DNA of 64,000 bases from assembly GCF_041381155.1 (NCBI RefSeq), contig NC_091134.1, positions 38,895,338 to 38,959,337 on the forward strand. The letters run 5' to 3'. A model generated the notes under the pieces. That model did not search any database, had not been told where the DNA came from, and worked only from the letters and a program-made list of their open reading frames with translations. Position 1 is the first letter of the stretch, and every line of letters begins with the position of its first letter. This document shows, piece after piece, positions 25,301 through 29,715 of the stretch. This DNA is from Argopecten irradians. Lineage: Eukaryota > Mollusca > Bivalvia > Pectinida > Pectinidae. Position numbers and translations under genes: made by a program.

Positions 25301-25359
25301 CGTTGGTAGAGACCGAGTTATCAAACAGACTATGGTCCGCGATATCAGCCGATCTATAA
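22336..25359 (+). pseudogene. Ty3/Gypsy Gag-Pol, interrupted by one stop and truncated
   Basis: One frame runs from the ATG at 22336. The Gag region is followed by a Cys/His zinc knuckle (CKKCKLKDHFAKKC), then an aspartic protease with DTGA at residues 299-302, then reverse transcriptase with LDATSGFWQL at about residue 516. A TGA at 23959-23961 breaks the reverse transcriptase. The same frame then continues with LPFGIKSAPE and the catalytic VDDILIW box (24073 onward), RNase H (TVDASAKG, about 24508) and the integrase HHCC zinc site (His codons at 25159 and 25168, Cys codons at 25258 and 25267). It ends at a TAA formed at the junction with the minisatellite. It would copy RNA to DNA and insert it in the genome. 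The single stop suggests a fairly young copy or a sequencing error. Confidence 0.85.
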
Positions 25360-28300
25360 ACAATACACAACTTACTTGTGGTACACACACCACCAGGTGT
25401 ATAAACAATACACAACTTACTTGAGGTACACACACCACCAGGTGTACTATAAACAATACACAACTTACTTGTGGTACACACACCACCAGGTGTATAAACA
25501 ATACACAACTTACTTGTGGTACACACACCACCAGGTGTACTATAAACAATACACAACTTACTTGGTACACACACCACCAGTGTACTATAAACAATACACA
25601 ACTTACTTGTGGTACACACACCACCAGGTGTACTATAAACAATACACAACTTACTTGAGGTACACACACCACCAGGTGTATACAAACAATACACAACTTA
25701 CTTGTGATACACACACACCACCAGGTGTACTATAAACAAATACACAACTTACTTGAGGTACACACACCACCAGGTGTATAAACAATACACAACTTACTTG
25801 TGATACACACACCACCAGGTGTACTATAAACAATACACAACTTACTTGAGGTACACACACCACCAGGTGTATAAACAATACACAACTTACTTGAGGTACA
25901 CACACCACCAGGTGTATAAACAATACACAACTTACTTGTAGGTACACCACACACCACCAGGTGTACAAACAATACACAACTTACTTGGGTACACACACCA
26001 CCAGGTGTACAAACAATACACAACTTACTTGTGGTACACACACCACCAGGTGTATAAACAATACACAACTTACTTGTGGTACACACACCACCAGGTGTAT
26101 AAACAATACACAACTTACTTGTGGTACACACACCACCAGGTGTATAAACAATACACAACTTACTTGTGGTACACACACCACCAGGTGTATAAACAATACA
26201 CAACTTACTTGTGGTACACACACCACCAGGTGTACTATAAACAATACACAACTTATGTGTGGTACACACACACCACACAACTTATGTGTGGTACACACCA
26301 CCAGGTGTATAAACAATACACAACTTACTTGTGGTACACACACCACCAGGTGTATAAACAATACACAACTTACTTGAGGTACACACACCACCAGGTGTAT
26401 AAACAATACACAACTTACTTGAGGTACACACACCATCAGGTGTACAAACAATACACAACTTACTTGAGGAACACACACCATCAGGTGTACAAACAATACA
26501 CAACTTACTTGAGGTACACACACCATCAGGTGTACAAACAATACACAACTTACTTGAGGTACACACACCATCAGGTGTACAAACAATACACAACTTACTT
26601 GAGGAACACACACACCATCAGGTGTACAAACAATACACAACTTACTTGAGGTACACACACCATCAGGTGTACAAACAATACACAACCTTACTTGAGGAAC
26701 ACACACTATCAGGTGTACAAACAATACACAACTTACTTGAGGAACACACACCATCAGGTGTACAAACAATATACAACTTACTTGAGGTACACACACCACC
26801 AGGTGTACTATAAACAATATACAACTTACTTGAGGTACACACCACCAGGTGTACTATAACCAATATACAACTTACTTGTGGTACACACACCATCAGGTGT
26901 ACTATAAACAATATACAACTTAATTGAGGTACACACACCACCAGGTGTATAAACAATACACAACTTACTTGTGGTACACACACCACCAAGTGTACTATAA
27001 ACAATACACAACTTACTTGAGGTACACACACCACCAGGTGTACTATAAACAATACACAACTTACTTGTGGTACACACACCACCAGGTGTATAAACAATAC
27101 ACAACTTACTTGAGGTACACACACCACCAGGTGTATAAACAATACACAACTTACTTGTGGTACACACACCACCAGGTGTATAAACAATATACAACTTACT
27201 TGTGATACACACACCACCAGGTGTACTATAAACAATATACAACTTACTTGTGGTACACACACACCACCAAGTGTACTATAAACAATACACAAATTACTTG
27301 AGGTACACACACCACCAGGTGTATAAACAATACACAACTTACTTGTGGTACACACACACCACCAGGTGTATAAACAACATACAACTTACTTGTGATACAC
27401 ACACCACCAGGTGTACTATAAACAATATACAACTTACTTGTGGTACACACACCACCAGGTATACTATAAACAATACACAACTTACTTGTGGTACACACAC
27501 CACCAAGTGTACTATAAACAATACACAACTTACTTGAGGTACACACACCACCAGGTGTATAAACAATACACAACTTACTTGTGATACACACACCACCAGG
27601 TGTATAAACAATGTACAACTTACTTGAGGTACACACACCACCAGGTGTATAAACAATACACAACTTACTTGTGGTACACACACCACCAGGTGTATAAACA
27701 ATACACAACTTACTTGTGGTACACACACCACCAGGTGTATAAACAATACACAACTTACTTGTGATACACACATCATCAGGGGTATAAACAATACACAACT
27801 TACTTGAGGTACACACACCACCATGTGTATAAACAATACACAACTTTCTTGTAGTACACACACCACCAGGTGTACTATAAACAATACACAACTTACTTGT
27901 GGTACACACACCACCAGGTGTATAAAACAATACACAACTTACCTGTGGTACACACACCACCAGGTGTACTATAAACAATACACAACTTACTTGAGGTACA
28001 CACACCACCAAGTGTATAAATAATACACAACTTACTTGAGGTACACACACCACCAGGTGTACCATAAACAATACAAAACTTACTTGAGGTACACACACCA
28101 CCAGGTGTACTATAAACAATACACAACTTACTTGAGGTACACACACCACCAGGTGTACCATAAACAATACACAACTTACTTGAGGTACACACACCACCAG
28201 GTGTACTATAAACAATACACAACTTACTTGAGGTACACACACCACCAAGTGTATAAACAATACACAACTTACTTGTGGTACACACACCACCAGGTGTACA

Positions 28301-29562
28301 AACAATACACAACTTACTTGTGGTACACACACCACCAGGTGTACTATAAACAATACACAACTTACTTGAGGTACACACACCACCAGGTGTACTATAAACA
28401 ATACACAACTTACCTGTGGTACACACACCACCAGGTGTACCATAAACAATACACAACTTACTTGAGGTACACACACCACCAGGTGTACTATAAACAATAC
28501 ACAACTTACTTGTGGTACACACACCATCAGGTATACTATAAACAATACACAACTTACCTGTGGTACACACACCACCAGGTATACTATAAACAATACACAA
28601 CTTCCTTGTGGTACACACACCACCAGGTGTACAAACAATACACAACTTACCTGTGGTACACATACCACCAGGTGTACTATAAACAATACACAACTTACTT
28701 GAGGTACACACACCACCAGGTGTACCATAAATAATACACAACTAACTTGAGGTACACACACCACCAGGTGTACCATAAATAATACACAACTTACTTGAGG
28801 TACACACACCACCAGGTGTACTATAAACAATACACAACTTACTTGTGGTACACACACCACCAGGTGTACTGTAAACAAGAATACACAACTTACTTGAGGT
28901 ACACACACCACCAGGTGTACCATAAATAATACACAACTTACTTGAGGTACACACACCACCAGGTGTACTATAAACAATACACAACTTACTTGTGGTACAC
29001 ACACCACCAGGTGTATAAACAATACACAACTTACCTGTGGTACACACACCACCAGGTGTACTATAAACAATACACAACTTACTTGAGGTACACACACCAC
29101 CAGGTGTACTATAAACAATACACAACTTACTTGAGGTACACACACCACCAGGTGTATAAACAATACACAACTTACTTGAGGTACACACACCACCAGGTGT
29201 ACTATAAACAATACACAACTTACTTGAGGTACACACACCACCAGGTGTACCATAAACAATACACAACTTACTTGAGGTACACACACCACCAGGTGTACCA
29301 TAAACAATACACAACTTACTTGAGGTACACACACCACCAGGTGTACTATAAACAATATAAACAATACACAACTTACTTGAGGTACACACACCACCAGGTG
29401 TACCATAAACAATACACAACTTACTTGAGGTACACACACCACCAGGTGTATAAACAATACACAACTTACTTGAGGTACACACACCACCAGGTGTACTATA
29501 AACAATACACAACTTACTTGAGGAACACACACCATCAGGTGTACAAACAATATACAACTTAC
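25357..29562. repeat. 4.2-kb minisatellite of 45/48-bp units derived from an EB-exon splice donor
   Basis: About 90 units occur in two main lengths, 48 bp and 45 bp, differing by a TAG (minus strand). On the minus strand each unit contains CACCTGGTGGTGTGTGTACC, TCAA and GTAAGTTGTGTATTGTTTAT. The GGTGGTGTGTGTACCTCAA|GTAAGT part equals the 3' end and donor of the EB exon at 29563-29715. The 48 bp form also has ..TTTATAG before TACACC. Variants such as CATCAG for CACCAG cluster at about 26430-26900. Unit lengths are multiples of three without stops, so long open frames appear on both strands; I do not treat them as genes. Confidence 0.95.
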
Positions 29563-29715
29563 TTGAGGTACACACACCACCAGATGTATTGAAGCTATTA
29601 CTATCAAAATAGCCATTGTTACAGCGACAAATATTTAAAGTACAGGAAGCTGTGGTGGTGTCCTCACATTCAGCAGCAGGTGCCCCGACCCCACAGGCTA
29701 CAGAAAGGGCTGCCT
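29563..29715 (-). CDS. EB/EGF-like exon (153 nt), source of the donor minisatellite
   Basis: The exon encodes LSVACGVGAPAAEC, TLNICRCNNGYFDSNSF and SGGVCTS, with six Cys. The acceptor is CTCCAG|AGGC and the donor TCAA|GTAAGT. The minisatellite starts directly after this donor. In this exon's frame the array stays open (SSKLCIVYSTPGGVCT repeated), so intron retention would add cysteine-bearing repeats. Confidence 0.85.

Follow-up and report, generated by a model that had tools for sequence, protein, structure and literature searches.

Exons and arrays at the locus

The stretch of DNA analysed here, which we call the window, is 64,000 nucleotides long (C1:38895338-38959337) and comes from the 846-Mb genome of Argopecten irradians. 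The G+C content is 35.6%, and the dispersed repeats resemble those of bivalves. Its minus strand carries many EB-like exons and two FN3 exons, and the gene family to which they belong continues as a cluster on the same contig. When nine of the EB candidates were compared with Pfam, one scored above the cut-off, six scored below it and two gave no match. Between 34794 and 52666 a segment of about 5.9 kb with EB exons is present in three tandem copies that are about 99% identical.

Two exons of the minus strand are the sources of the arrays that concern us. The FN3 exon (30092..30379, minus strand; 288 nt, phase 1-1) matches Pfam fn3 with an E-value of 4.9e-8, is preceded by AACAG and is followed by GTGAGT. 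The EB-module exon (29563..29715, minus strand; 153 nt, phase 1-1) is preceded by AG, is followed by GTAAGT and has paralogues, and its match to Pfam EB (E 0.021) lies under the curated cut-off. The order within the gene is acceptor array, FN3 exon, EB exon and donor array, so the exon pair is flanked by repeats on both of its outer sides.

The donor array, array B, occupies 25354..29562 on the minus strand (TRF span of the array, 25354-29588) and contains 90 units, mostly of 45 or 48 bp, in which the final 26 nt of the EB exon are joined to GTAAGT and 13-16 nt of intron. The initial annotation had described it as a minisatellite in which the end of an exon of the host gene is repeated together with its 5' splice site, beginning at the real donor, and the anatomy of the units bears this out and goes slightly further. 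The unit lengths of 45 and 48 bp also hold, accounting for 37 and 38, respectively, of the 89 spacings that were scored (one donor is not in that set). The description of about 90 perfect consensus donors can be made more exact: there are 91 donor positions, beginning with the real donor at 29562, and GTAAGT is found at 83 of these and hence in 82 of the 90 array copies, five of which read CAG|GTAAGT. The exonic part, put at about 19 nt, proved to be longer; the exact 19-mer does occur 37 times, the real exon included, but the likeness extends over the full 26 nt, with 23-25 matches to the end of the EB exon in 75 of the 90 copies. Similarly, the TTTATAG that was said to stand ahead of the exonic part of the 48-bp units is there in 29 of 38, and the other nine have TTTATGG. 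The proposal that such units might act as 26-nt microexons meets with two objections: 26 is not a multiple of three, so a single microexon would shift the frame of a phase 1-1 gene, and the intron between microexons within one unit would be only about 22 nt in length. Donors 2-35 preserve the reading phase and donors 2-18 precede the first in-frame stop, making an in-frame extension of the exon possible, a feature on which the annotation was silent. As possible consequences of the array, the annotation also raised nested introns, a variety of alternative ends and the trapping of U1 snRNP.

A 25-mer composed of the exon end and the donor occurs 34 times in the stretch formed by the exon and its array, and it is absent from both strands of the rest of the window even with up to four mismatches allowed. 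The likeness of array B to the exon end is therefore not due to chance. There are 47 distinct unit sequences among the 90.

The acceptor array, array A (30380..31676, minus strand), was not mentioned in the initial annotation. In it the 3' splice site of the FN3 exon is copied upstream 30 times together with the start of that exon, a count that leaves out the real site and one anchor inside the exon. The units are 38 bp long in the distal part and 47 or 48 bp in the proximal part, the first 20-31 nt of the FN3 exon are copied, and AG is kept in 28 of the 30. The 38-bp and 48-bp units have TATTGTTTA[CT]AGT in common, an agreement that was equalled in one of 500 shuffles. Most of the spacings (24 of 30) are not multiples of three, and exon starts taken from the upstream copies run into stops.

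Related boundaries in the window can lack such repeats. The upstream EB exon of the same gene (32345..32506, minus strand) has no array here; a donor array with a 34-bp unit is found at its paralogue, C1:38752914. The homologous EB-FN3 pair located at 60.7-61.5 kb also has array-free boundaries. At its low end array B gives way to Ty3/gypsy-like pol reading frames (22318..25359, plus strand) with reverse transcriptase, RNase H and integrase zinc-binding matches and a protease match below the cut-off. The cut pol frame ends where the array ends, and this point is a candidate breakpoint or misjoin. No EB or FN3 exon was recognised below array B in the window, which weakens the case for an intron here. 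Further domains of the gene were sought downstream, at the low end of the minus strand; in the 10 scanned out of 32 open frames that reach 70 aa, only DUF7869 was found, in two frames (1469-2008 and 2448-2801, minus strand; the second below the cut-off).

Arrays in the paralogous genes

A near-identical paralogue, L014, is located outside the window at a distance of 22-29 kb, on the other strand. Its FN3 exon is 98.96% identical to that of the window at the amino acid level, a 798-bp flank is 93.9% identical, and the next FN3 exon is found about 7 kb downstream. Both arrays are present in this paralogue with other copy numbers: the acceptor array comprises 67 copies in addition to the real site (TRF, 66.9 x 38 bp), compared with 30 in the window, and the donor array has 41 units if the real one is included, of which three lie past a gap of 1.2 kb, compared with 90 besides the real donor in the window. 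Copy number thus differs between paralogues, with one assembly as the sole source of the counts. Mean identity within the donor arrays is 0.890 in the window and 0.774 in L014; for the acceptor arrays it is 0.785 in the window, a value lowered by the mixture of two unit lengths, and 0.883 in L014. The greater uniformity of the longer array in each pair is what a recent local expansion would give. The EB exon of the paralogue (L014:6088-6240) is not of the same length as its counterpart in the window, which means either that its frame is broken or that the assembly is in error there.

The genome contains 77 matches to an exact 30-mer taken from the donor array, located in three places of this cluster. 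The third copy (C1:38.709-38.717 Mb) looks rich in indels, and in it array A passes into array B with neither the FN3 nor the EB exon intact. This bears on the proposition that the array, or its length, is an assembly artefact produced from collapsed or misjoined reads, to which the ending of array B at the cut pol frame and the error-rich appearance of another array-bearing contig, C578, also lend some weight. The window and L014 copies look clean, however, the units of array B carry differences of their own, and arrays of this kind are found again at several loci as well as in genes that are unrelated. We consider an artefact very improbable.

Other EB exons of the family have donor arrays that differ from array B. 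The EB exon of L021 is followed by about 25 units of 34 bp, and none was seen at the copies of that exon in the window, L014 and L017; a longer donor array of the 34-bp type is found on C578. The EB exon of L015 (L015:5474-8381) has a donor array of 29 x 100 bp, in which most units read ATAAG in place of GTAAG: GTAAGT is found in 6 of 26 units and GT in 8 of 26, the intact units being at the edges. A donor-dead variant has been amplified in this array. In a related exon, L024, there are just two 73-bp copies at the donor. The L021 and L015 arrays are unrelated to the one in the window. Away from recognised exons, near the paralogous gene, a 55-bp array is present in about 102 copies at L013:1164-7373 and about 31 copies at L014:17-1765.

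Placement in the family and across the genome

Within 255 kb we counted 15 merged arrays (period 15-120 bp, at least six copies), six of which adjoin EB or FN3 exons. Under our own grouping four of seven distinct kinds of array span an exon boundary, random placement giving about 0.034 for each. The corresponding P values, about 4e-5 for four of seven and 7e-4 without the array that led us here, are approximate, being based on 191 boundaries found by script in a family chosen for this very finding and with related sites treated as independent. When the boundaries were used as probes, at least three copies of a 22-mer were found within 3 kb at 8 of the 191. Control probes reached the same level at six sites in introns, every one of them at an array-carrying boundary, and at four sites inside exons (two in the L015 array, one in L027 and one an artefact at the edge of a locus, with a count of 3001). 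Since these controls fall in the same arrays, the probe test by itself cannot separate the boundary from its neighbourhood. At least one copy was found for 73, 62 and 51 of 191 boundary, intron and exon-internal probes, respectively, and we read most of these as duplicated exons.

Two unrelated genes provide further cases. A mitofusin exon (L053; C1:6468500-6469300), identified by Pfam (4.7e-9) and by PDB 1t3j (E 5e-7), has an array at C1:6463090-6468539 that amounts to about 130 unit lengths of 42 bp, the unit being the last 31 nt of the exon and 11 nt of intron. A guanylate-cyclase exon (L049; Pfam 3.2e-7) has about 17 units of 48 bp. Outside the family, the surroundings of eight donor-pattern arrays drawn from among the matches listed were read, and in these two the array begins at a clear coding exon. 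Of the remaining six, one starts at a possible exon (L040), two were read short of their start (L048 and L052) and three showed no recognised exon (L037, L047 and L050).

These six might be said to favour a minisatellite that merely happened to touch an exon. Against such a coincidence, a unit spanning the junction is found in four different arrays of the family, on both exon sides, and again in two of the eight arrays outside it, and we find the coincidence scarcely credible.

At the level of the whole genome AGGTAAGT repeated three times has 7320 matches compared with 966 for the reversed pattern, CAGGTAAGT has 2488 compared with 68, CAGGTAAGTA has 743 compared with 47 and CAGGTAAGTG has 394 compared with 11, all of these being counts of matches and not of arrays, for nested patterns with one reversed control string each, to which a few very long arrays contribute and in which the donor is a common word. 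The excess of closely spaced donors over the reversed control hints at a possible splice-site bias. A bolder proposal is that splice donors are preferred birthplaces of minisatellites throughout the genome, in many unrelated genes, and form a source of decoy sites and new introns that turns over quickly. Some property of the junction, such as transcription-coupled R-loops or the breakage of DNA at a strong U1 site, would then start the tandem duplication. We offer this proposal tentatively and regard it as rather doubtful.

Origin of the arrays and known boundary repeats

The two arrays of the window are, in our judgement, probably exon-boundary minisatellites of the kind called 'mirages', which have arisen by neutral duplication and growth within the intron, the true exon being left intact. 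In such a scheme a short tandem duplication would take place across the junction, copying either the exon end and the intron start or the intron end and the exon start, in such a way that neither the true exon nor the genuine splice site is disturbed. The array would then grow inside the intron by slippage or unequal exchange. The first donor, or the last acceptor, would be used and the array would be removed with the intron, the additional splice sites being by-products that are carried because the site lies within the unit. The anatomy of the units, their presence at both boundaries, the array-free state of paralogous boundaries, the differences in copy number between paralogues and the presence of further arrays, at other exons as well as in two unrelated genes, were all observed; we infer the mutational route, slippage or unequal exchange, and normal splicing.

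A different view is that the arrays are functional, with strong decoy donors binding U1, tuning the recognition of the FN3-EB pair or giving rise to longer proteins in frame. The intact donors of array B fit with this, as does a duplex calculation in which pairing with U1 is no weaker than that of the real donor for 83 of the 90 array donors, and the in-phase donors described above would add 15-16 residues per unit before the first stop. In the 34-bp array of L028, GT is free of substitution in 86 profiled units and the neighbouring bases vary. Only 3 of 34 dinucleotides are as constant as GT there, and selection could be the source of this constancy, although the contig appears to be rich in errors and the other profiled arrays have no such outlier, 18 of 45, 10 of 34 and 15 of 38 dinucleotides, for example, being as constant as GT or more so. 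The donor hexamer of array B is not specially conserved either: of the 43 hexamers in the unit, 16 are equally or less variable, and in none is the number of kinds of change greater. In the exon frame of array B, codon differences are silent in 3 cases and change the amino acid in 112 (3 and 22 when distinct differences are counted), and it is another frame that stays open for longer (772 codons). The donor-dead units amplified in the L015 array, the spacings and upstream stops of the acceptor array, and the report that lancelet arrays of the same kind splice normally (PMC3087553) also count against a function, which we think unlikely.

Other candidates were considered in passing. A coding tandem repeat is ruled out by the codon test, the exon frame being without constraint. 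A special RNA structure was rejected after four stretches had been folded, with z-scores from -0.32 to -2.36 and no common structure noticed. Rfam gave no match at the gathering score in the 64-kb window, and a 26-mer of the array gave none in viral contigs.

Boundary minisatellites are a kind of repeat that is already known, though rarely described, and that is unusually large and recurrent here. Turri, in 1995, reportedly described a minisatellite with multiple splice donors in the human interferon-induced gene 6-16 (IFI6), which by the title of that work is of the same kind as the arrays in the window. Zhuo, in 2007, is said to have described human introns arising from tandem arrays. In human segmental duplications, tandem repeats at exon boundaries have been linked to novel introns and to alternative splicing; they average four units of 30 bp (PMC2812944), in which they differ from the arrays reported here. 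Intron 3 of an abalone TSSK1-like gene has an intronic minisatellite with a 27-bp unit and 62 repeats, and the available part of that source does not state that it spans a boundary (PMC6905558). Among the matches listed from the open-licence literature we noticed no boundary minisatellite in a mollusc or other protostome, and those described so far would seem, from the same matches, to belong to a few lancelet genes and some human ones. With arrays of more than 100 units, recurrence in one family and the mitofusin and cyclase cases, two questions become testable: how the spliceosome selects a single donor from some 90 that are nearly identical, and whether new introns can arise by way of tandem duplication at junctions.

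The closest parallel is with the mirages of lancelets, the cephalochordates for which the term was introduced, reported for Adh3, the globins BflGb6 and BflGb9, troponin C and PGBD5 (PMC3087553; PMC3902484). These are minisatellite-like tandem duplications that span an exon-intron boundary, 5' or 3' (PMC3087553), in which many units keep AG or GT, evolution is concerted inside the cluster and regular splicing is not disturbed (PMC3087553; PMC3902484). The unit in the window likewise spans an exon-intron boundary of its host gene; both types of boundary are represented, with the donor array after EB and the acceptor array before FN3, and most units, although not all, keep their splice signals (82 of 90 donors and 28 of 30 acceptors). 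In the globin cluster BflGb6 two haplotypes carry 6 and 3 units, respectively, each 150-160 bp in length (PMC3087553), whereas the arrays described here have 30-130 shorter units. Unlike the lancelet mirages, they flank one exon pair on either outer side and recur within a single gene family.
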